Of a stretch of 64,000 bases of DNA, positions 1,566 to 31,074 are shown in pieces. A model generated the notes under the pieces. The model saw only the letters and a program-made list of their open reading frames with translations, was not told where the DNA came from and did no database searches. Source of the stretch: Skeletonema tropicum (lineage: Eukaryota > Bacillariophyta > Thalassiosirophyceae > Thalassiosirales > Thalassiosiraceae); the NCBI GenBank assembly GCA_037178625.1, contig CM074128.1, positions 4,836,001-4,900,000 on the forward strand, in the 5' to 3' direction. Within the stretch, counting starts at the first letter, position 1, and each line of letters begins with the position of its first letter. The position numbers and the translations under genes were made by a program.

Positions 1566-1964
1566 ATGTTGACATCTGTCATTCTCGACTCCATGGCAGC
1601 AGGCATAATCTTCATTTTCTCCGACACTATCATGCCTACCCTTGCCACCTTGGACACAGACTTTGGAATTAGCATCATGAATGAAATCAATATTAACATT
1701 GTTAATCCAACTTTCGCCGTGGCTTTTTTCGGTGGCCTCATTTCTGCTTATCCTGCAGGAATCATGTGGAAGAATCCTAATGATTTCACCATACCTAGAA
1801 ACAATGTTTTGTTAGCCGTTGATCCAGAATCTGAAGAGGGTGCAAGTTATTGGGAGGTTCAATTTTTGAAAGGTTGGGTTGGCTGGAACAATGCTCGCTG
1901 CTTCTTTAGCGTTACGTCTGCTATTCTTGGAGGGCTTTCCCTTGCCTTTATGAGGAAGTCTTAG
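1566..1964 (+). CDS. DUF1772 (anthrone oxygenase-like) membrane protein
   Basis: A 132-aa protein matching the DUF1772 pattern over its whole length. It has an N-terminal hydrophobic helix with a small/aromatic-rich segment (AAGIIFIFSDTIMPTLATL), a second helix after an INI-NP-F motif (NPTFAVAFFGGLIS), a central N-V-P-x-NN-type loop seen here as IPRNNVLLAVDP, and a last helix preceded by W-x-x-WN-x-x-R (VGWNNARCFFSV). Family members are about 150 aa, so this is near full length. Some members act in anthrone oxidation, but most are uncharacterised, so no substrate is proposed. The start is the first Met of the frame. No obvious intron is needed. It lies directly downstream of the satellite array. 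Confidence 0.75.
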   Translation: MLTSVILDSMAAGIIFIFSDTIMPTLATLDTDFGISIMNEININIVNPTFAVAFFGGLISAYPAGIMWKNPNDFTIPRNNVLLAVDPESEEGASYWEVQFLKGWVGWNNARCFFSVTSAILGGLSLAFMRKS

Positions 1965-2761
1965 ACTAAAGTTATGTAAAAGTATCGATAATTGTACAAT
2001 TTGTTTACTTGACTTGAAACACTTGCTTATTACTTATGACCCTTGGATCGATTTCTTACAATGATAGAAGAACGGAAGATGTATAACATGATGTAAAATG
2101 TATAGTGCCGATCGCTTCTGGCTGTTTTCCTGTAGCGGCGAGACAAAAGATACGGATACGGCCCACTGTGCGGTGTCGATTTTGACATTGAGAGTAATCA
2201 GCTGAATGAAAGTTAGAATCTTAATTCGTAGTAGGCTAGGAAACAAGAAGCAGTTACCGCGGATTGGGTGTGAAATCCACCTCTACTTCTTCAGCAAAGT
2301 ACCGCTAGAGAGTACAGAAGTAAGTAGCATGCACAAGTCTGCAATTGAATGCATTCATTGTGGATACCTTGAATAAGACAAGTCCAGTACCGTTATGGAC
2401 AATATATTCTTTCTTCTTAGATGACCGGTACACGAAGGGTCACAAAGTCTCTACTTACAGTCTGCTTGCCCGCAGTTAGTAACGCAGCGCAGGATAAGCA
2501 AGCGGAGGAAAGGGTCGTCGCGCTATGCACTGATATTATTTCTCACCGCTATCTGGCTGCTCTAGAGAGAACTGAACACACTGCTCGAGAAGGATTTGCC
2601 TGCACCACGACAAAATTGTTTCTTCTGATGTGCAGCTGCAGATGCACGACTCCTTGCCTTTGCATTTGCTGCAAGTGAGCTCAAAATCAAAACCACTGTC
2701 GTAAAAAGTTTCAAGCACAAACATAAAACTGTCGAAATTTAATCAAGGAAGAGTAGTCATC
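1965..2761. other. Intergenic, no supported gene
   Basis: About 800 bp between the DUF1772 and oxidoreductase genes. It holds frames of 85 codons (2421-2678, plus) and 62 codons (2536-2724, minus) that overlap each other and show no family signature or biased composition beyond Cys-rich ends. The 3' part probably contains the oxidoreductase promoter. Confidence 0.5.
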
Positions 2762-3601
2762 ATGATGAAAGCTGTGGTCTTAGTTGACAAGAACATGGTG
2801 AAAATCCGAGACATAGACTTAAAGGTTGGTGATGCAGTGTATGGCCACCTGCAGTATTCTCGAAGCACTAAACAGGGTGCTTTCGCTGATTTTATCACAG
2901 TTCCGGCATCTGAATGTGCCAAGATTCCCGAAGGCATTGAATTGGATGCAGCTGCAGCAGTGACGACTGAGGCGCTAACGGCTCTTCAAGCAATAAGAGA
3001 CAAAGGTGGGTTGACCGAAGAAAAAAACCTTCTGATCATTGCGGCAGGTGGCGGCGTAGGTACTCAAGCCGTCCAGATTGCAAAATTACCGAAGGCAGGG
3101 AAAGTGCATGCAGTTTGTTCCACCAAAGATGTATCGAATGCAACGAAGCTAGGAGCGGATCTTGTCATTAATCGTATCAAAAAGGACGTCACCAAGACCC
3201 TGAGCGCTGCGTCATACGATGTAATCTTCGACACATCTGGCAAGTATTCACTCATGAAGATGCACTACGCTATGAAGAGAGGAGGGACCTTCGTATCAAC
3301 CGTTCCACACCTGACTGAATATCCACCCTTTTCCTGGATTATTGGTAGTGTAACAGGGAAAAGTTCCAAGTCACTCATGGTCAAGTGTAACCGTCAAGAC
3401 CTCGAGCTCGTTGCCGAATGGCTGAAAGCAGGTGGCATCACCGTTCCGATCGATAGCATATATAATGTCGAAGATATCATTGAAGCTATCGAACGTCAGG
3501 ACAGTGGTAAAAAGTCAGGGCGAGTGGTTATCAAAGTAGCAGACGGTTGGCAGTATTGCTGTCTCGTCCTCATTCCCAATTTTGTTGGGTATATGTTATA
3601 A
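2762..3601 (+). CDS. Medium-chain (zinc-independent) quinone oxidoreductase-like, N-terminal domain shortened
   Basis: A 279-aa member of the MDR superfamily of NAD(P)H-dependent oxidoreductases. The Rossmann nucleotide-binding loop is clear (AAGGGVGTQAVQIAK, near residues 97-111), followed by KVHAVCSTKD, LGADLVIN, VIFDTSG, and the C-terminal KKSGRVVIKV typical of NADPH:quinone reductases. The N-terminal GroES-like domain is wrong: the first strand (MKAVVLVDKNMVKIRDID) runs directly into LKVGDAVYG, so roughly 50-60 residues normally between them (the G-x-D-x-x-x-x-G core) are missing. Either the gene has lost an internal segment, which would disturb the active-site domain, or the true 5' end uses an exon I cannot identify. 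The last ~20 residues are hydrophobic and beyond the usual family end. Confidence 0.7.
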   Translation: MMKAVVLVDKNMVKIRDIDLKVGDAVYGHLQYSRSTKQGAFADFITVPASECAKIPEGIELDAAAAVTTEALTALQAIRDKGGLTEEKNLLIIAAGGGVGTQAVQIAKLPKAGKVHAVCSTKDVSNATKLGADLVINRIKKDVTKTLSAASYDVIFDTSGKYSLMKMHYAMKRGGTFVSTVPHLTEYPPFSWIIGSVTGKSSKSLMVKCNRQDLELVAEWLKAGGITVPIDSIYNVEDIIEAIERQDSGKKSGRVVIKVADGWQYCCLVLIPNFVGYML

Positions 3602-3696
3602 CATTTGCATGAAAATGAATAGTCGAGAATCACACAACACACAACCCGCCCTCATGTCAGCTGTTTTCTCTAAATAGGCTAAGATAGCTTATCTTC

Positions 3697-3966
3697 TTTC
3701 TCGAAACCAATCACACGTGAAACATTTTCGTGTCGGTCACACTTTTTCGATCCCAAAATGAAGTCTTCCAGAATCTTATTGTCACAGATGAGGGGATGGG
3801 ATCACATTCTTAGCTAGCTGTTTATGTCACGCGTATGCCAACCATTCATTTCTTTTCTCGAAACCAATCACACTGAAACATTTTCGTGTGGGTCACACTT
3901 TTTCGATCCCATGAAGTCACTTATTCACACAGACGAAAGATGGGATCCCATTCCCTAGCAGTTCAT
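3697..3966. repeat. Two direct repeats upstream of the protease gene
   Basis: A block of about 115 bp at 3697-3812 recurs at 3854-3966, offset by about 157 bp. Shared words include CTCGAAACCAATCACAC, AAACATTTTCGTGT, GGTCACACTTTTTCGATCCC and a GATGGGATC-CATTC end. The second copy ends about 100 bp before the protease start codon, so the pair sits where promoter elements would be expected. The region also has an ACACACAC tract. Confidence 0.8.
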
Positions 3967-4063
3967 GGTTACACACACACACGCACTCATGCCAATCATG
4001 AAATCATTTCATAATCATTAGGAGCATCATTCCACACTTAGTCCAATAAAAGCATCGACCACC

Positions 4064-5668
4064 ATGAAAGTATCTGCTCTGCTGTTAGCCCAACTACTTC
4101 AAGCTTCCTCTACCGGGGCTCGCCTGTTCCAGAATACGAGGACGAGGGAAATGAGTATAGTTAGTAAGAATGAAGATGATACTGATCGTATTATTAACGG
4201 TGTCGAAGCGGAAGAGGATAGGTATTCTCATATGGTATCTCTGTCTGATAACAATGGTGCGTTTGTACTTTCTATATTATCTTCAAATTATGTTGCTTCC
4301 TCAACTTCTTGCACTCACACTCAAAATGAATGTTCAACTTACAACTTACGAATCAAGGTCACTTTTGCGGAGCATCACTCATTGCTAACGATATAGTGCT
4401 ATCAGCAGCACATTGTGCAGGTAATTACACACATAGTTTGGTCTTCTTTGTTGCATGAAGTCTCTCACACACTCACTAACAATTCATGACTGATACCTCA
4501 TTCTTCCCCAGGTGGTGGCTACGACGCCATCATTGGTAGGCACAAGCACAATGATAGAGATGGCGACGAAGTACCCGTGTCTAAAGAATTCATTCATCCA
4601 AATTACAACGATCGGACCACGAACAACGACTTCATGGTATTGAAGTTGTCTCGTAAAACAACCGCAGGTACACCAGTGCAGATCAATTCCTCAGGTTCGT
4701 CTCCAAAAGACGGACAACAGGTCGTCGTCATGGGCTTTGGTGTCACCAATGAAAACACTCAGCAGACGAGTAACAAATTGATGGAAGTCACTGTGGATGT
4801 TGTCTCGGATGCAGATTGTCGTGAAGCGTATGGAAATGAATTCACCCCCTCGACAATGCTCTGTGCAGCTAGCCGTTCCAAAGACAGCTGCCAAGGTGAT
4901 AGTGGTGGTCCCGTAAGTCGTTTGTGTCAGAAGATTGCTCGTACTATTGCGTCACCCCCCTACCATACTCACAGCCAATTTTTCTTTTACGTCGCTCCAG
5001 TTAATCATCAAAGGCAGCAATTCTGCGACCGATATCCAGGTTGGGATTGTCAGTTGGGGTTATGGATGCGCGGATCCTAGCGTAAGTGCATGCTGAAATC
5101 TCTTATCTGTTTTGAAGCAATCACTCTTTTATCGTATCAAACGCTTTTCATTCCCAAGTCTAACGTCTGTTCCTTTTCAATATAACTCTCTTAGTACCCG
5201 GGTGTATACGCGGAAGCAAGTGCTGGGTATGATTTCATCCAAAAAATCGTTTGTCAAGAAAGTCAAGATGCAAACGCTAGAGAAACCTTTGGATGCAGCG
5301 GTATTGCTTCTGGCGCAGCTATAGCACCAAGCAGTGGAGGCAGCTCATCAGGTAGTTCAGTTTCTCAGGCAAATAATGATGATTTCAACTATGACGATTT
5401 TGGATTCAGCTCCGGTGTCTCAGGCTCAGGCTCTGGAGGAAGTTGGGGCTGGGATGACTACACTGACGACGATTGGGACTATGATTATGATGATGATTGG
5501 GGTAGTGGAGCGTCAGCGTCATTTGGTAGCGGCGGAGGGTGGGATGACTATGGCTACGAATATGATGATGACGATGATAGGGTAGCTTCGACACAAGGCC
5601 AGTCGTCCGGTGGTGGAGGCGGCTGGAGCGGATCGATGGCTGGTTGGTGGGCCAATTTGTGGAATTAA
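4064..5668 (+). CDS. Secreted trypsin-like serine protease (S1), five exons
   Basis: Exons 4064-4256, 4358-4420, 4512-4912, 5001-5081 and 5195-5668 join in frame to 403 aa; all four introns are GT-AG. An N-terminal hydrophobic signal peptide (MKVSALLLAQLLQASSTGA) precedes a short propeptide and the trypsin activation-type start IINGVEAE. The catalytic triad is present: His83 in SAAHC, Asp125 in TNNDFMVLKL, Ser216 in GDSGGP. Asp210, six residues before Ser216, predicts trypsin-like cleavage after Arg/Lys. VSWGYGCADP and YPGVYAE are standard S1 motifs. The last ~130 residues form an unusual low-complexity tail, rich in Gly, Ser, Asp, Trp and Tyr (WGWDDYTDDDWDYDYDDDWG). This may bind cations or surfaces; that is inference. 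The upstream direct repeats may be regulatory. Confidence 0.93.
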
Positions 5669-22333: not shown

Positions 22334-23752
22334 TTACACCGGCCGAAAACTCAGTGATTCACTGGAGTTGTCATCACCAAAGTTGAATTCCCCACCCGAC
22401 TGCTGCATCTCGAAAGAAAGTCTCTTTGATTTCCTTTCCCTCACTTTCATCGCAACCTTCCCCCCAATAATCACGATAATCACCAAGAAGATGTAGCCCA
22501 GATACACAATTCCCCAATCTGTAGTACTGAACCGCTTCGAAAATAACCCCAGTCCACTGTGCACTTGATATGTCCCCAATGCAAAGATCAAAAGACCACA
22601 CCCAGCATGACTCAGATACCAAAGCGTCCTTGTCGTCAAACTCTTTGTTTGACTCCTGTGGATCGCTCCGGGAGTACGATCGTTTAAATCATCGGTGATG
22701 AACTCCCGCGGCGGACGCAAAAAGCCATTGGCTGTCTGAAAACTAACCAATAACAACAGAAGCAGTCCAACAATGTGATGAGCCTCCTTCAAATGACCCT
22801 CGCTTGCATCACCCATACCATTCAAGGTGGCAAACGCAATTCCAACTGTAAAGAAAGTCAGGGCAAATGTGGTAACGTTGAGAAATACGTGAATGTAGAT
22901 CCAATATCCTGGAATCAAATCACGAAAGAACGCCGAAGATATGGCCGAGGGGACCAAGAGACCGAATATGGTGGTCCCAATGGCACCGTGAGCCACCCAT
23001 TTCCTTTGTTGATCGTTAGAGTAAGTCTTGAGTGGGACAGCTTTTGTACTGCTGCCAAGAGTAGTTTCTTCTCCTTCCCATTTGGCCTCTTCTACTAATT
23101 CTTTGGCCGTTTCTTCAACATCCACCTCCTCAGTCATTCCAGTTCCATCAACAGCATCTGACTCCACTTCTCCGTCTGGTGTATCATCATACGGTTTCAT
23201 CATATCGCCGGGAGCAATGGCGTCAACACCGTCGTACACGATTTCTGGAACCACCTGTTCCACGGGTTCTTCTTCTGGCTGAGGGTTCACTGGCGTATCA
23301 TCATAATCCTTTGGAAGTTGATTGGTCCCAAGATTCATACCAAAATCATCATACACGACTTCTGGCACCTTGTTGTCTCCCCTACCTGCTACATCTCCTC
23401 CACCACCACCACCATCAAGGGCATACATCATATCATCAGGTGCATTATCCGGCACATTGTAATCAGCCTTCTCTGGAAAATCTTTACTGTCAAAATGATC
23501 TTCCATCAGAGCTGGATCATCAAATTGATACTCCGCTTCTAAATTATCATCTGTCATGACTGCAGCCTCATCTGTTGCGTCGATGACTCCTTCATTATCA
23601 TCTGCTTCGCCAGTGTTCTGCAGTTGCCGTCGAAGTGGGCTGGTGGTTTGTAATATCGCCGATTCTGTAGCGGCCAAAAAAGTGCACAAGAGAAGCAAGC
23701 TGAGTGCTGCTAATTGATTGCGGCTTCTGTGCTTTGACTTCCACATGGTCAT
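22334..23752 (-). CDS. Cytochrome b561-domain membrane protein, copy 1
   Basis: A 472-aa protein: signal peptide (LAALSLLLLCTFLAATESA), a ~200-residue acidic Asp/Glu/Pro-rich ectodomain, then a b561-type domain. The four haem-binding His candidates are in KWVAHGAIG, YWIYIHVFLN, LKEAHHIVGLLLL and LWYLSHAGCGLL, in separate helices as expected for a transmembrane ferrireductase-type di-haem protein. FQTANGFLRPP and RTLWYLSHAGCG are family-like. A basic cytosolic tail (VRERKSKRLS) ends in SLSFRPV. Related proteins move electrons across membranes, often from ascorbate to ferric iron; the actual donor is unknown here. Its promoter region carries a 310-bp MITE absent from copy 2. Confidence 0.85.
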   Translation of the reverse strand: MTMWKSKHRSRNQLAALSLLLLCTFLAATESAILQTTSPLRRQLQNTGEADDNEGVIDATDEAAVMTDDNLEAEYQFDDPALMEDHFDSKDFPEKADYNVPDNAPDDMMYALDGGGGGGDVAGRGDNKVPEVVYDDFGMNLGTNQLPKDYDDTPVNPQPEEEPVEQVVPEIVYDGVDAIAPGDMMKPYDDTPDGEVESDAVDGTGMTEEVDVEETAKELVEEAKWEGEETTLGSSTKAVPLKTYSNDQQRKWVAHGAIGTTIFGLLVPSAISSAFFRDLIPGYWIYIHVFLNVTTFALTFFTVGIAFATLNGMGDASEGHLKEAHHIVGLLLLLLVSFQTANGFLRPPREFITDDLNDRTPGAIHRSQTKSLTTRTLWYLSHAGCGLLIFALGTYQVHSGLGLFSKRFSTTDWGIVYLGYIFLVIIVIIGGKVAMKVRERKSKRLSFEMQQSGGEFNFGDDNSSESLSFRPV

Positions 23753-24352: not shown

Positions 24353-24813
24353 TCCACCAATCATCACGCCATACATCAGAACCAGAAAGTACAGGAGTAG
24401 AGGATACATCGCGGGAGGGTACGTCACGACGAAGAGCGAGGCCAGTTCTTCGTTAGTATGTATAATCAAGAAGAGGTGAACAATAATATACAATTAGAAA
24501 ACAGGGTTTGTGTATCTGTTGTGTATATCATCAAGAGCGGAATCAAACATGACACTTGCAGGGAGAGATGGGGTTTGTTTGGAGAGAGAGAGATAGAGAG
24601 GAGATCACATCATAGAATGTGTGTACTCGTGTGTCTGAGGGTGGAAGGGACTGATAAGAGTTCAGACACATGCTTGAATTGTTGGAGATCTTCATCGGAG
24701 ATTTTCAAAATTCAAATTTGAAGAATCTCTGGATGGTAATGTCCAACAATACATCATTCTGGATGTCTCCTCTCTCCACTCTCGACCAATGTCCACCTCA
24801 ATGATCTCTCCCT
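24353..24813. repeat. Duplicate of the 32283-32727 segment
   Basis: From ACCAATCATCACGCC at 24351 to CAATGATCTCTCCC near 24813, this stretch matches 32283-32727 almost base for base, with small indels (an extra GGGGTTTGTTTG stretch here and an altered GAGAG run). In its original place the sequence is part of exon 2 and most of intron 1 of the Gly/Tyr-rich gene. Here it forms the intergenic DNA and the 3' end of b561 copy 2. Confidence 0.93.
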
Positions 24814-25995
24814 CGCAACCTTCCCCCCAATAATCACGATAATCACCAAGAAGATGTAGCCCAGATACACAATTGACCAATCTGTAGTACCGAACCGCTT
24901 CGAAAACAACCCCAGTCCGCTGTGCACTTGATATGTCCCCAATGCAAAGATCAAAAGACCACACCCAGCATGACTCAGATACCAAAGCGTCCTTGTCGTC
25001 AAACTCTTTGTTTGACTCCTGTGGATCGCTCCGGGAGTACGATCGTTTAAATCATCGGTGATGAACTCCTTCGACGGACGCAAAAAGCCATTGGCTGTCT
25101 GAAAACTAACCAATAACAACAGAAGCAGTCCAACAATGTGATGAGTTTCCTTCAAATGACCCTCGCTTGCATCACCCATACCATTCAAGGTGGCAAACGC
25201 AATTCCAACTGTAAAGAAAGTCAGGGCAAATGTGGTAACGTTCAGAAATATGTGAATGTAGATCCAATATCCTCGCATAAAATCACGAAAGAACGCCGAA
25301 GATATGGCTGAGGGGACCAAGAGGCCGAATATGGTGGTCCCAATGGCACCGTGAGCTACCCATTTCCTTTGTTGATCGTCGGAGTAAGTCTTGAGTGCTT
25401 CTCCGTCTGGTGTATCCCTATCATTATAAGGTTTCATCTTATCGCCGGGAGCAATGGCGTAACCACCGTCGTGCACGATTTCTGGAACAACTTGTTCCAC
25501 GGGTTCTTCTTCTGGCTGAGGGTTCACTGGCGTATCATCATAATCCTTTGGAAGTTGATTCGCCCCAAGATTCATACCAAAATCATCATACACGACTTCT
25601 GGCACCTTGTTGTCTCCCCTATCTGCCACATCTCCACCACCACCACCACCACCACCAAGGGCATACATCATATCATCAGGTGCATTATCCGGCACATTGT
25701 AATCCGCCTTCTCTGGAAAATCTTTACTGTCAAAATGATCTTCCATAAGAGCTGCGTCATCAAATTGATACTCCGCCTCTAAAGTGTCATCTGTCATGAC
25801 TGCAGCCTCATCTTTTGCGTCGATGACTCCTTCATCATTATCTTCTGCTTCGCCGGTGTTCTGCAATTGCCGTCGAAGTGGGCTGGTGGTTTGTAATATC
25901 GCCGATTCTGTAGCGGCCAAAAAAGAGCACAAAAGAAGCAAGCTGAGTGCTGCTAATTGATTGCGGCTGCTGTGCCTTGACTTCCACATGGTCAT
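24754..25995 (-). CDS. Cytochrome b561-domain protein, copy 2, with a foreign C-terminus
   Basis: A 413-aa tandem paralogue of the 22334-23752 gene, near-identical in signal peptide and b561 domain with all four candidate haem His residues kept. Two differences matter. About 44 residues of the acidic linker are missing: copy 2 goes from DTPDGEA straight to LKTYSDDQQRKW. And after VIIGGKVA the native basic tail is replaced by RERSLRWTLVESGERRHPE, encoded by DNA copied from 32.7 kb. The junction is at the bases AATGATCTCTCCC/TCGCAACC near 24813-24816. The membrane domain is complete, so the protein could still function, with a new cytosolic tail. Confidence 0.85.
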   Translation of the reverse strand: MTMWKSRHSSRNQLAALSLLLLCSFLAATESAILQTTSPLRRQLQNTGEAEDNDEGVIDAKDEAAVMTDDTLEAEYQFDDAALMEDHFDSKDFPEKADYNVPDNAPDDMMYALGGGGGGGGDVADRGDNKVPEVVYDDFGMNLGANQLPKDYDDTPVNPQPEEEPVEQVVPEIVHDGGYAIAPGDKMKPYNDRDTPDGEALKTYSDDQQRKWVAHGAIGTTIFGLLVPSAISSAFFRDFMRGYWIYIHIFLNVTTFALTFFTVGIAFATLNGMGDASEGHLKETHHIVGLLLLLLVSFQTANGFLRPSKEFITDDLNDRTPGAIHRSQTKSLTTRTLWYLSHAGCGLLIFALGTYQVHSGLGLFSKRFGTTDWSIVYLGYIFLVIIVIIGGKVARERSLRWTLVESGERRHPE

Positions 25996-26311
25996 CGCTG
26001 TATGATAGAGTAGCTGTTTGCTTCCGCTTATATTGCTAAGTACCTGAGAACACTACTGGCCACTTCTTAATAACTTCTCTATGACCGTGTCCATTATCTA
26101 TGTCTATGTCAATTGATCTTTGCGTTCGTGATTCGGCAAAGTGCAAGCAAGATGTTGATTCGACACTTTACCTGTGGCTGACCGCGACTCAGATGCCAGA
26201 TTTAGAGATGTTCTCCCACGGACAGGAGTTTTCCTCACATTTTGATTTTGACCACTCATTTTTCATGAACCCTGAGAATAGGGCAAATAAGTACGTAGGA
26301 ATTCCATACAT

Positions 26312-26552
26312 GCCTGTCCCCCGTTTTTTTTTGGTTCCGACGATCTCCACTTTTTGCTCTCCACCGCCGCAGCCACAAAGATCCGCCCTCCCGTAGTATC
26401 ATATTACCACCCATACCATAGGGCACACACAACGCATAATAACTTGATAACATACTGTCCCCTACAGAATTTTCCGTAGAATTCAACGGCGGCCGCCGAT
26501 TTGTTACGTTTGCAGCGGTTTTATTTACGTATCGTCATAAAGCTGACGGTGC
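26312..26552. repeat. Left terminal inverted repeat
   Basis: Begins GCCTGTCCCCCG at 26312 and ends AGCTGACGGTGC at 26552. It is the reverse complement of 30405-30646 apart from a few substitutions and one-base indels. It includes GGGCACACACAACGC and the homopolymer T run at 26324-26332. It provides the upstream region of the transposase gene. Confidence 0.95.
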
Positions 26553-26581
26553 TTTTTCTTATCATCATCGCATCTTTCATC

Positions 26582-28618
26582 ATGGTTTCGACCAAACAAT
26601 TGTCTCCCAAGACTCCGAAGGTAGGAAAGAAGCGCCGATCAACAAAAGTTACTCCCTCTCCTGTGGCAGTGAAAAAGAAAAAGAATGCATGTGACTGCAA
26701 TTGGAAAGATTGCGCTAAACTTCTGGCAATTTTTAACAAAAACAAACACCCTGACTTTGCTGGCAGATGCATCAATATTGAAGTGTCCGACACAGTCAAT
26801 GCATTGAATTTTATTAATTGTGCATGTAAAAACCTTGGTATTTCCGTATCCGACTACAAAGAACTAAAACAGAAAGCAACAGATGACTCTAATATGAAAC
26901 GGACACGTGCAACACACACGGAGGGAGGGAGGAGGAAGAAGAACAACATATTCATTGCACGGCATCACTTCAAGCCTGGGCTATGGAGAATGAAAAAAGC
27001 GAGTAAGAAAAAGTGGCAATGGCTTCAGCCCATATCATCAGACGACGTTAAAAAATACAAAGTGTTGGCTGATAACTACACAACCGACAAAGTTGTACGG
27101 TTCGATCCGGACATATCCAACAAACTACAAAATGGGAGAGAGAAGAAAGTCGACTGTGAATCAGAGGAGGGGAGACTGTATATCAAAGCGCCATGCGCTA
27201 CAAAGGAGGATGTGCGGCAGATTGCAGAACCTCGTCAAGGACTTGACAGCAACACTCTTGATGAAAAGAGGGAAGCTGCACTTACAGCAGAGGAAATGAA
27301 AGCAACGATTGCTTCAAAGGATGCAATGATTGAAACGCTGCGAAAGCAACTAGAACAATCCAATGCAGAGAAGAAAAAGAAAGATGACGAACTAAAGCGA
27401 ATAAAATTACAAAAGGATGTTGCAAAGTCACAAAAGAAAGCTGTGCAGAAAAGTATCAAAAGAACGACGGCCAAGCATGCTGAGGATGTTGCAAACATTG
27501 CGGTGGAACTGCAGGAATCCACTATTTTGCAAGAAGCAAAGGAGATCGTCTTGAACGCTGGTGGTCTGTCAAGGTTAACACTATTTAGTGACCGATTTCA
27601 CAACAAAAACAAACATGCAGCAAAGGTTCTGTTTGGGTATGAAAGTTGGGACGAAACAAAGCAATACTTGCGTGTTCACTTCCCGAAGGAGATTGAAGCC
27701 GACTTCAACATGGATAACATCATATTCACAACTAACAGGAAGAGGAAGAAGTCAAAGGAAAAGTCAAACCAGTTCAAGATGCCAAATCTTCATCAGTTTG
27801 AGAAGGCTCTTATCTGCCGAATGTTCCTTCACCGTATCAGTGACCAACAAATGATTGCATTGATGTTGGCTCGCCACCGAACGACTATTAGCAATATACT
27901 GTACGAGTGGGGACCAAAGTGGGGTGAATTAGGAGATGATTTATGCAATCTTGACATTACTGAGGAATATCTTGAAGTCGAGCTTCCCAATAAATTAGTT
28001 GAGAATGGATACCCAAAAGTTGTTATGATTGATGGAAAGGATGTTACTATTGGCACAAAAGTTAATGATGGCACCGCAAGTAGAGTCACTTTCAGCTCCA
28101 AGACGGACTGTGATGCAGCCCGATGTTTGACTTGGTCCACAGCTGCGGGACTTGTATTTGAACATACGCCATTGTTTGGGGCCCGTGCATCAGAAACAAA
28201 GCTACAGCGTCTCTGGGGATCACTCGGACGTAAGTGTGCACCAGTGGAGGAGTGGAAAGATATTGCCAAGCAACGGGACGAACTGTCAATTGTTCCAAAT
28301 GAAGATAGGCATTACAATGCGTTAAATAATGTCCTCAAGTATGAAGATTTCAAAAGCCTCATTGATGAAGTTTGCAATGAATTGCTTGGTGACGAAGATG
28401 CGCCACACGACGATGTGTTGATTACTGGGAATGCAACAGGTTTGGATCGGCTTGGTCTTCTAAAAACTTTGGAGTGCGACGAGAAAGAAGCAGAAAACGG
28501 TGACAAAGATGCAACAAATGAAAAGGAGAGTACTGCGTTAGTGACTGATGCAGTAGAATGGTTCAAACAACGCAAGGCAATGAACTTGGCAGAAGAGATT
28601 TCTCCTGCAAAAGAGTGA
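26582..28618 (+). CDS. DDE-type transposase-like protein
   Basis: A 678-aa protein. The N-terminus is basic (KVGKKRRSTK, KKKKN), followed by a Cys-containing segment CDCNWKDCAKLLAIF and later INCACKNLG, possibly a zinc-binding DNA-recognition module. Residues near 245-320 form a Lys/Glu coiled coil. Next come an LSRLTLFSDRF segment, a helix-turn-helix-like stretch (DQQMIALMLARHRTTISNILYEW) and a catalytic-core pattern: PKVVMIDGKDVTIG, then CLTWSTAAGLVFEHTPLFGARASETKLQ. This order resembles eukaryotic IS4EU/ISL2EU- or Harbinger-like transposases, where an HTH precedes VIDG and G-x-x-SD motifs. The usual second acidic position reads SET rather than SD. The third acidic residue cannot be assigned with confidence. 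Start chosen at the first ATG inside the repeat end. Confidence 0.72.
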   Translation: MVSTKQLSPKTPKVGKKRRSTKVTPSPVAVKKKKNACDCNWKDCAKLLAIFNKNKHPDFAGRCINIEVSDTVNALNFINCACKNLGISVSDYKELKQKATDDSNMKRTRATHTEGGRRKKNNIFIARHHFKPGLWRMKKASKKKWQWLQPISSDDVKKYKVLADNYTTDKVVRFDPDISNKLQNGREKKVDCESEEGRLYIKAPCATKEDVRQIAEPRQGLDSNTLDEKREAALTAEEMKATIASKDAMIETLRKQLEQSNAEKKKKDDELKRIKLQKDVAKSQKKAVQKSIKRTTAKHAEDVANIAVELQESTILQEAKEIVLNAGGLSRLTLFSDRFHNKNKHAAKVLFGYESWDETKQYLRVHFPKEIEADFNMDNIIFTTNRKRKKSKEKSNQFKMPNLHQFEKALICRMFLHRISDQQMIALMLARHRTTISNILYEWGPKWGELGDDLCNLDITEEYLEVELPNKLVENGYPKVVMIDGKDVTIGTKVNDGTASRVTFSSKTDCDAARCLTWSTAAGLVFEHTPLFGARASETKLQRLWGSLGRKCAPVEEWKDIAKQRDELSIVPNEDRHYNALNNVLKYEDFKSLIDEVCNELLGDEDAPHDDVLITGNATGLDRLGLLKTLECDEKEAENGDKDATNEKESTALVTDAVEWFKQRKAMNLAEEISPAKE

Positions 28619-30379
28619 TCCATCTTCGCAACTGCATGTTGACAGTGGGGATGATAGAAAGTCCCCGTCCTTCTTATCTTCAAAGACGGCATGGATGGTA
28701 TGGATGACAGGTCGGACAGAACTCAGAGCTTCGCAGCGCAATAGCAGGCAAGATGAATTGTCTATTTTGGATGTCACATTGCAACATTGGATAGAGCGTG
28801 GATTGATGTTTCCTCCTTTCAAGAGTAGTATTGCTCGTGATCTCATTCCTGGAAGGGCTCCATCCAACTTCTCTTCCATGTAGCTGTCACTTACATCTCT
28901 AACGAGTTTTGCAATTGTGTAGTAGTCTTTGTCCCAAGAGTCAAACTTATTGTTAGCAATTCGTGCCTCTAACGCCTCAAATCCGTTGTACTTTCCCATT
29001 AGAAACTTGATACTAGGAGGAAGCACAGGTTTGTTGTTAGCTAATGCCCACCGTACATTCCGCTCGATAATTGATCTCGACTCCTTCTGAAGTGTTTTAA
29101 TCCCTCTTGACTGCAGCCAAAGTATTAGACACAATCGCGGTTGTGCTTCAAGTGGAACCTTTTCAAAGTCAAGGCGGGCAAATGTTGGAAGCGGCTCACT
29201 TGTTGCAACAGTTGCATTATCAGCAGCAGAATAACAGGGGCCACGCTCCTCATCAACTGGCTTCCCAGTCAATGGTACGACATTGCGTACATGGTAAACG
29301 TCATCGTATTGATGCGGGGTGATGGCAGCATCTCTGTCGAAGGCGATTTGAAGATATGATTCTAAATCGTCAACACCTTCTGGCAATGGAGTCAATGGTA
29401 CAACCGACACATTCCCGGTACTCTGACATTTCTGAAATACCGGTGCATGCAAGAGGTAACGGCGTGCTGCTTCGTAATCTGCCGCATAATTGTCGGGTGC
29501 ATTCTTATTTGTAGCCCCCAATGTCTTCACCCACTCCTCGCGGTCACTTGCTGCGGCTAGTTTATCAATCAATCCACCATCTTTCAGAACAGTCTTCTTT
29601 CCAACTAAGCGGATGTTTGGATGGTAATCATTACCTAGGAGCAGAGCGATGTCAACAATATTGTTGGGATGTTGTGCCAATTTAGACGATGTTTCTCGCT
29701 CAATGAATTCTTTCTTTTCGTAGATGCGTGAAAATAACTTTCCTGATTCTGTTTTCCATTTAGATAGAACCATCTCGCTGTTCAGGATAATCAGGTCGCC
29801 ATCCTCTGTCGCAATTGCGTCAACAACACCGTCCATCTCCAGCTTCCTCATCTGTTGGTCTGCCTCAAATAAAGAGCCAACCATCCAGATGCCTTTACTT
29901 GCCATCCAAGAAATAACTGCTGCATGATCGGCTGCGGTAGGATGCGCCTTTTTCATTCTACTTGCAATTGCTTGTTCCACCTCTTCTTCTTCAAAGTTAA
30001 GGGGTGCAGCATCATCTTGCAGTTGCAACACATCACACAAAAACTTATCATACTCTTCCCCACCTTTGTTGCGATCACCTTGCCTACGCAACTTCTCTCT
30101 ATTCTTTATTGGCGGCGCTTTCCCGTCAAATACGTAGCAGGGTATTACTCCTACATCAATCACCAGGTCGTGAAACTCTTGCACGTAGTCTAATATATCC
30201 GGAGATGCATAAGTTGGTTCGTTTGTTGAAGTCAGTTTCGTCAGCTCCTTGCCGTTTACCTTGTTCAATATGATTGCAGCATCGAAGGCAACTCTTTTCC
30301 CTTTCAAAATAGATAATGCTTGGTGTGGTTTGCTGCTAAAGCCACCCAAAGCATGCACCCAGAGGTGACGGACTGTCAT
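28538..30379 (-). CDS. FEN1/XPG-family structure-specific nuclease
   Basis: A 613-aa protein with the full set of XPG-family metal-binding acids: Asp33 (GKRVAFDAAI), Asp85 (CYVFDGKAPP), Glu172 and Asp174 (LFEADQQM), Asp193 and Asp195 (ATEDGDLI) and Asp251 (LLGNDYHPNI). The order of N and I regions and the following NIRLVGKK segment fit flap endonucleases, which cut branched DNA. After about residue 330 the sequence leaves the family, and the last ~100 residues, overlapping the 3' end of the transposase gene on the other strand, are Cys-rich and unlike a nuclease. It is not a normal host FEN1: there is no PCNA-binding QxxLxxFF tail and it lies within the inverted repeats. It probably acts in excision or repair of transposition intermediates. 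Confidence 0.85.
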   Translation of the reverse strand: MTVRHLWVHALGGFSSKPHQALSILKGKRVAFDAAIILNKVNGKELTKLTSTNEPTYASPDILDYVQEFHDLVIDVGVIPCYVFDGKAPPIKNREKLRRQGDRNKGGEEYDKFLCDVLQLQDDAAPLNFEEEEVEQAIASRMKKAHPTAADHAAVISWMASKGIWMVGSLFEADQQMRKLEMDGVVDAIATEDGDLIILNSEMVLSKWKTESGKLFSRIYEKKEFIERETSSKLAQHPNNIVDIALLLGNDYHPNIRLVGKKTVLKDGGLIDKLAAASDREEWVKTLGATNKNAPDNYAADYEAARRYLLHAPVFQKCQSTGNVSVVPLTPLPEGVDDLESYLQIAFDRDAAITPHQYDDVYHVRNVVPLTGKPVDEERGPCYSAADNATVATSEPLPTFARLDFEKVPLEAQPRLCLILWLQSRGIKTLQKESRSIIERNVRWALANNKPVLPPSIKFLMGKYNGFEALEARIANNKFDSWDKDYYTIAKLVRDVSDSYMEEKLDGALPGMRSRAILLLKGGNINPRSIQCCNVTSKIDNSSCLLLRCEALSSVRPVIHTIHAVFEDKKDGDFLSSPLSTCSCEDGSLFCRRNLFCQVHCLALFEPFYCISH

Positions 30380-30404
30380 CGGCGTGGAATAAATTAATTA
30401 TCAC

Positions 30405-30646
30405 GCACCGTCAGCTTTATGACGATACGTAAATAAAACCGCTGCAAACGTAACAAATCGGCGGCCACCGTTGAATTCTACGGAAAATTCTGTAGGGGAC
30501 AGTATGTTATCAAGTTATTATGCGTTGTGTGTGCCCTATGGTATGGTTGGTAGTATGATACTACGGGAGGGCGGATCTTTTGTGGCTACGGTGGTGGAGA
30601 GCAAAAAGTTGAGATCGTCGGAACCAAAAAAAAACGGGGGACAGGC
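30405..30646. repeat. Right terminal inverted repeat
   Basis: Reverse complement of the left repeat, beginning GCACCGTCAGCT at 30405 and ending CGGGGGACAGGC at 30646. It provides the upstream region of the nuclease gene. Confidence 0.95.
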
Positions 30647-31074
30647 TTTACGTAGGGATTCTCACGGTTCATCACATCACCAGTTTTGAGATGGATGCAA
30701 CGTTGAAGCAGAACAAAGACGTTTGGTAGAATAACTCTTCCTCTATCTCTTTAAAGTAACGAATAAAACCTTGTGAATCTATGGCCACAGGATGGAATAT
30801 GCCTCGAGCACAATCTTAGAATACCCATCCCACAAAAGTGACCCCTCTCTTTGCGATAAATTTCCCCATCAATATCGACATTCCATACTCAGACACTCTG
30901 ATCAACCGAACCATGTTATTTGTTGTTTCGTATTGTTGCAGACATCATCTCCTTCAATATTCCCAATCATCAACGGAATGAATCGTGTACAGCAGTCTTG
31001 TGCTTATAATTTCAACGTGAACAAAAATCTAATCTGCTGCTACCTCCCGTCCAATCCGTCATGAAATGAGTGCT

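Follow-up and report, generated by a model that had tools for sequence, protein, structure and literature searches.

A 64,000-nt stretch of the genome of the diatom Skeletonema tropicum (contig C2:4836001-4900000 of a 78.4-Mb genome; hereafter the window) contains a recently moved, internally deleted copy of a transposon that pairs a DDE-like transposase with an XPG-family nuclease. The gene pair, the long inverted repeats, the AT target-site duplication, the recent multicopy spread, the internal deletions and the metal ligands of the nuclease are directly supported. We consider it likely that the element is a cut-and-paste transposon of the PIF/Harbinger-ISL2EU-Spy (PHIS) kind, whose parent of approximately 5.3 kb encoded a DDE transposase of approximately 902 aa and a convergent XPG nuclease of approximately 659 aa with a SWIM-like finger, and that this nuclease acts on breaks. 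A preliminary description, made from the letters of the window alone, had reported an intact transposon at 26265..30673 with 241-bp inverted repeats and two convergent genes. The repeats and the convergent genes were found as described and the bounds were right within 1-2 bases, but the copy is not intact.

The ends of the element were placed by comparing the flanks of 17 two-ended copies in the genome (the window copy and L030-L045), and they fall outside the long inverted arms. The two arms of the window copy (241 and 242 bp) were approximately 97% identical to each other, and the outer inverted repeat agreed at 12 of 13 bp between the left and right ends. The arm had 40 genome matches (the best 40 of 42 candidates), 19 of the left type and 21 of the right type with the window's two included; thus, the window arms are not a chance occurrence. 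Most left arms (16 of 19, the window's included) matched the window arm in full, and three were slightly different. Outside the set of 17 were the one-ended copies L029, L046 and L047, the pieces on contig C15 (L048 and others), and right-arm matches at C6:844651, C7:2464873 and C7:2588016.

AT was present on both sides of 15 of the 17 two-ended copies, the exceptions being L032 and L039. The empty-site search was restricted to the regular copies (L032 and L039 left out) and scored the best 40 of 522 candidates. The rejoined target of L040 (query 900-1003) was found unbroken in at least 39 other places with 99% identity and that of L038 (query 799-900) in at least one place with 100%, in each case with a single AT. 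The target-site duplication is therefore 2 bp, AT, and the comparison with other copies that the preliminary description had proposed for defining the ends and the duplication yielded both. Empty sites for L040 were available because its insertion hit a dispersed repeat, which accounts for the at least 39 further places at 99% identity. L032 and L039 carried GTGAT and CAGT, respectively, in place of AT on both sides, with slightly changed ends, and are perhaps aberrant insertions. A hand count of the 15 regular copies showed A preceding AT in one and T following AT in two.

Alignment of the copies showed that the window copy is without a stretch that is 907 bp long in L037 and 895 bp long in L045, and this single deletion cuts both genes. 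Lost with it are the coding sequences for the transposase segments LADKGF and ETVFSR, in which the second and third catalytic residues (D2 and E3) lie, and for the C-terminus of the nuclease, including the last part of CSCEDGSLFCSH. The inferred parent is 5303 bp long, with a transposase open reading frame (ORF) of 902 aa, a nuclease ORF of 659 aa and 8 bp between their ends; because the parental ORFs end 8 bp apart, the 80-bp overlap of the ORFs in the window copy is a product of the deletion. The window copy may have moved with transposase supplied in trans, or it may have lost the gene parts after landing. Its transposase ORF remains open for 678 aa and retains the N-terminal Cys/His cluster, the coiled coil and the first catalytic Asp (D484), with D2 and E3 absent. 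The protein could accordingly be imagined to bind DNA and repress its full-length relatives, as the KP protein represses P elements. We regard such a function as quite improbable: the deletion is confined to the window copy among the 17, and the copies differ too little to reveal selection.

Internal deletions were found in all 17 two-ended copies. A full nuclease ORF was present in four of them (L034, L035, L036 and L038) and a full transposase ORF in none. The copies were 97.1-100% identical across the aligned stretches, mostly at least 99.5%, and the same deleted form occurred at three sites with differing flanks (L034-L036). By these identities, the family of the window element (family A) is young, recently spread and multicopy. 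The 17 copies and L047 gave 23 distinct deletion junctions in a tally made by hand, in which alignment ends may blur by 1-2 bases: 13 junctions shared 1-5 bp, four were blunt and six contained 2-14 bp of filler. A cluster of broken pieces of the family-A element lies at C15:104000-152671, some of them apparently duplicated (106036 and 127794), which suggests a nested or duplicated repeat block.

The related transposases P0001, P0006 and P0005 were 901, 947 and 1086 aa long, vs. 678 aa for the window protein, and all three contained the D2 and E3 segments; P0002 (705 aa) and P0003 (686 aa; record named Skeletonema dohrnii) were shortened in other ways. In L049, a member of a second family (family B), Pfam DDE_Tnp_4 (PF13359) matched above the cut-off (E = 1.7e-7) and covered all three catalytic segments. 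The preliminary assignment to a DDE-like transposase on the Harbinger/ISL2EU side is supported for the element by this match of a related family, but the window protein itself is without the D2 and E3 segments. Family B and the query transposase were 33-45% identical in the longer matches. The spacing of D2 and E3 was 47 in L051 and 49 in P0001; that of D1 and D2 was 77 in L051 and 305 in P0001, family A being approximately 228 aa longer there than family B. The putative DDE_Tnp_4-type assignment of family A is based on P0001 together with the alignment with family B. A CxCxWxxC...HHF pattern was noted by eye in the transposase; the Pfam scans of the transposases gave no THAP match, and helix-turn-helix (HTH) family HTH_Tnp_4 matched L049 only weakly (E = 0.21). 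A profile search of the PDB with the transposase returned no convincing relative (best E = 0.11), and viral contigs contained no relative of transposase or nuclease at the sensitivity of the search tool. Just inside both ends of the window copy lies TACGTAGG, and CCTACGTAGG (4872-4881) is located close to the right terminus of L049, the distantly related element of family B; these sequences are a candidate transposase-binding site. No exact match to TACGTAGG was found in L050-L053.

The nuclease matched Pfam XPG_I (5.4e-10) and XPG_N (5.3e-6), and the seven metal ligands named in the preliminary description (D33, D85, E172, D174, D193, D195 and D251) were all present. The nuclease had also been called complete, which is true of the catalytic domain but not of the C-terminus: relative to related proteins and other copies, approximately 64 C-terminal residues are gone and the last approximately 18 residues are foreign. 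The fold predicted for the nuclease of a full-length copy was that of the XPG family, nearest to EXO1; the structure list gave XPG-family chains, and the absence of other folds from that list means nothing. On the two domain matches, the seven acidic ligands and the predicted fold, the protein is assigned to the XPG/FEN1/EXO1 family. The CxC...CxH motif CSCEDGSLFCSH was found in L034 and P0008, with similar sequences in P0011, P0013 and L049; SWIM (PF04434) matched with E = 0.013-0.11, under the Pfam cut-off. The nuclease of the window family differs from human EXO1 and FEN1 in its low identity (approximately 20%), in its C-terminal SWIM-like finger and in being transposon-encoded. It also differs from human FEN1 in Asp174, where FEN1 has Glu. 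In a tree of 10 rows, with long branches, no outgroup and two host ORFs called EXO1-like by eye, the transposon nucleases and one locus on C7 were apart from the two host ORFs with support 100/99. That locus, L055 (C7:3203400-3206200, − strand 562-1698), is a diverged XPG-like ORF of 378 aa.

The pairing of a DDE-like transposase with an XPG-family nuclease, as the preliminary description had it, also recurs, by sequence comparison, in distantly related families within this genome. Of the 25 nuclease loci outside family A, 20 adjoined a transposase locus, and of the 39 transposase loci outside it, 20 were paired with a nuclease. In family B, L049 has an 829-aa XPG nuclease head-to-head with its transposase, and in L051 a full transposase adjoins what remains of a nuclease. 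The ends of L049 and L052 were also AT followed by AAGCGATT; terminal repeats of L051 and L053 were looked for and not found. A third lineage (family C) is represented by the rearranged L053 (C23:607500-613500, + 1921-3759 and − 3620-5172), where a 612-aa frame joins an XPG domain to a C-terminal DDE-like part, the XPG part being the only one detected by Pfam, and the N-terminal half of the transposase lies beside it on the opposite strand. A fused XPG-DDE protein was considered for this locus; because the N-terminal half is on the opposite strand and no second full-length match was found, an internal inversion is simpler. The frame is thus probably the result of an inversion and possibly a real fusion gene. 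Related transposases and nucleases also occur in metagenomes, among them P0001 and P0008, whose longest contigs have the same length (5793 bases each), which suggests that the two belong to one element. Short, stop-riddled matches to the family-B transposase core (approximately 41-54%), with no nuclease match nearby, were found on C54, C100 and C31, at C15:503080, C4:1195951, C5:1470377 and C23:450953, and elsewhere; they are perhaps a related family that is nuclease-free or very decayed.

This recurrence bears on the idea that the XPG gene came from the host and was caught by chance between two transposon ends, which we find hardly credible. Transposons do capture host genes, and outside family A just four of the 20 nuclease loci with a neighboring transposase showed part of the XPG core. 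XPG nevertheless adjoins the transposase in three families, namely A, B (L049) and C (L053), metagenomes contain relatives of both proteins, and the transposon nucleases separate from the two host EXO1-like ORFs in the 10-row tree (100/99, with its long branches and no outgroup).

Features of the transposon copy and its surroundings, in positions of the window
Feature	Position	Strand	Remarks
Neighbouring ORF beside the insertion	22334-23752	−	weak DUF4079/cytochrome b561 match
Neighbouring ORF beside the insertion	24754-25995	−	weak DUF4079/cytochrome b561 match
Left AT target duplication	26265..26266		AT on either side of 15 of the 17 two-ended copies; single AT in empty sites of two other insertions
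Transposon copy, internally deleted, GAACCC...GGTTC	26267..30670	+	4404 bp; ends common to other regular copies
Left terminal 45 bp	26267..26311	+	outer inverted repeat of 13 bp, followed by sequence that includes TACGTAGG at 26292
Left long inverted repeat, 241 bp	26312..26552	+	approximately 97% identical to the right arm; genome matches
Truncated transposase ORF	26582..28618	+	678 aa and stop; D2 and E3 segments lost
Nuclease ORF	28538..30379	−	613 aa; complete catalytic domain, truncated SWIM-like finger at the C-terminus and foreign tail
Deletion junction	28599..28606		907 bp of L037 exchanged for approximately 8 bp
Right long inverted repeat, 242 bp	30405..30646	−	approximately 97% identical to the left arm; genome matches
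Right terminal 24 bp	30647..30670	−	TACGTAGG at 30649 and outer inverted repeat
Right AT target duplication	30671..30672		flanks of two-ended copies and empty sites

When known systems were compared, the closest resemblance was to ISL2EU, which is described as having an AT duplication in an A-AT-T context, a transposase with DDE, HTH and THAP parts, and a YqaJ ORF (PMC4482050). The window element is like ISL2EU, so described, in its AT duplication (here shown by empty sites) and in being a two-gene element with a DDE transposase (here DDE_Tnp_4 in family B) and a nuclease as the second protein. It is unlike ISL2EU in that the second ORF encodes an XPG nuclease with a SWIM-like finger, not YqaJ; in its target context (A before AT in 1/15, T after it in 2/15); in giving no Pfam THAP match; and in the approximately 228 additional residues between D1 and D2 in family A relative to family B. 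YqaJ had no matches in the genome (the control matched in 2/14). The element was not filed as ISL2EU outright because its second ORF is XPG where YqaJ was expected and the A-AT-T context was not found. The PHIS superfamily is described as having short target duplications of 0-4 bp (PMC10045372, PMC12730594), a range that includes the 2-bp AT duplication, and a DDE_Tnp_4 transposase with three catalytic segments was found in family B (L049). On these sequence comparisons, the element is best filed as PHIS-type, resembling ISL2EU, with XPG-SWIM in place of YqaJ.

Academ, whose AcademX nuclease is XPG-like, resembles the element in that transposons of the AcademX lineage carry an accessory nuclease. 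AcademH and AcademX are described as tied to helicase and nuclease (PMC10045372). Academ is set apart by its duplications of 3-4 or 9-10 bp (PMC10045372); here the duplication is 2 bp, AT, and the transposase points to PHIS. The DDE_Tnp_4 match agrees with the tentative earlier placement of the transposase nearer to ISL2EU and Harbinger than to Academ. KolobokD, KolobokE and KolobokP are lineages with differing nucleases beside the transposase (DEDDh, lambda-exonuclease-like and His-Me finger; PMC9587614), and they are similar in that accessory nucleases differ between lineages of one superfamily. Kolobok differs in its transposase superfamily and in its nuclease families, and XPG is unmentioned in the main text of PMC9587614. 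The preliminary description had named a larger known element with this gene pair as grounds for doubt; the element is indeed larger, approximately 5.3 kb, but no description of it was found in the literature searched. The literature search, whose range did not extend to Repbase or most subscription papers, turned up no publication that links XPG to a PHIS or ISL2EU element, so novelty is unproved.

In the mechanism that we propose, the transposase would excise the element and insert it at AT with a 2-nt stagger, and the element's own 5′-acting nuclease would resect the donor break in the manner of EXO1, trim 5′ flaps at insertion gaps, or both. Such 5′-end processing would favor template-copied gap repair, which would restore or multiply the element, and aborted gap repair would leave deleted copies. 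The XPG protein would fill the place held in ISL2EU elements by the YqaJ protein, a lambda-exonuclease-type 5′-3′ enzyme. Resection of 5′ ends is the role that we tentatively predict for the nuclease, because its predicted fold is nearest to EXO1, because the ISL2EU relatives carry YqaJ and, weakly, because the deletions would follow from aborted gap repair (transposons without a nuclease show deletions too). Alternatively, the nuclease would solely trim 5′ flaps at the 2-nt integration gaps, as FEN1 does, for ligation, with no resection of the donor break. FEN1, XPG and EXO1 have a common fold, and staggered insertion by DDE elements, here by 2 bp, leaves gaps with possible 5′ overhangs. The best PDB sequence matches of the nuclease were to FEN1 (3.6e-9), and its best NCBIfam match was fen_arch (3.2e-12, under its cut-off), besides which the NCBIfam and PHROGs scans gave nothing informative. 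We consider flap trimming as the sole role rather unlikely.

Several observations weigh against a PHIS-kind transposon whose nuclease acts on breaks. DDE_Tnp_4 was under the cut-off in L051 (4.5e-5) and P0001 (5.4e-4), and Pfam gave no match to it in P0003, P0005, P0006, the window protein or the L053 ORF. The AlphaFold2 model of P0001, built from a 10-row alignment, had a mean predicted local distance difference test (pLDDT) score of 44.9 and was unusable. The full transposase ORF was absent from all copies examined, L029 running into 500 Ns. The relative P0011 has Gly at the D85 position and so is without one ligand. Nine of the 13 junction microhomologies consisted of one base, which is near chance, and the junctions are therefore hardly informative on mechanism; deleted copies are, moreover, common in transposons that encode no nuclease. 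Of the 20 nuclease loci found paired outside family A, just four matched part of the XPG core, the other 16 matching only behind the core. The 20 pairs are not 20 independent cases, since several of them are copies within a single family. Finally, 19 of the 39 transposase loci outside family A had no nuclease match nearby, most of them being short matches, many with stops.

The last count also fits a nuclease that is dispensable for transposition, either a passenger or an enzyme with some other task, for example the cleavage of rival DNA or defense against silencing by the host. Many transposons move by transposase alone, and in four of the 17 copies the nuclease ORF is full but the transposase ORF is not. 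We nevertheless judge a dispensable nuclease unlikely, given that the nuclease is kept beside the transposase in divergent families and differing gene orders with its ligands retained, and that the CxC...CxH motif is kept in L034, P0008, P0011, P0013 and L049.

With somewhat less than even confidence, we suggest that the element represents a distinct diatom PHIS lineage, in which an EXO1-like XPG-SWIM protein stands where ISL2EU has YqaJ. This would be a non-homologous swap of 5′-to-3′ nucleases in which 5′-end resection is selected and drives copy gain. The window copy also provides a caution: an open ORF pair flanked by long inverted repeats can belong to a deletion derivative that is dead. 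Accessory nucleases occur in several transposon superfamilies. Here, an unrelated enzyme class has seemingly taken the place of another in an element whose AT duplication is the same, and this points to a common function, 5′-end processing at transposition breaks. The question is testable because the diatom strain has been sequenced and its element copies are young and numerous. If the proposal is true, then 5′-end resection of transposition breaks would be a selected step that drives copy-number gain, and the partnership of transposase and nuclease could show how elements steer the repair of their own breaks.
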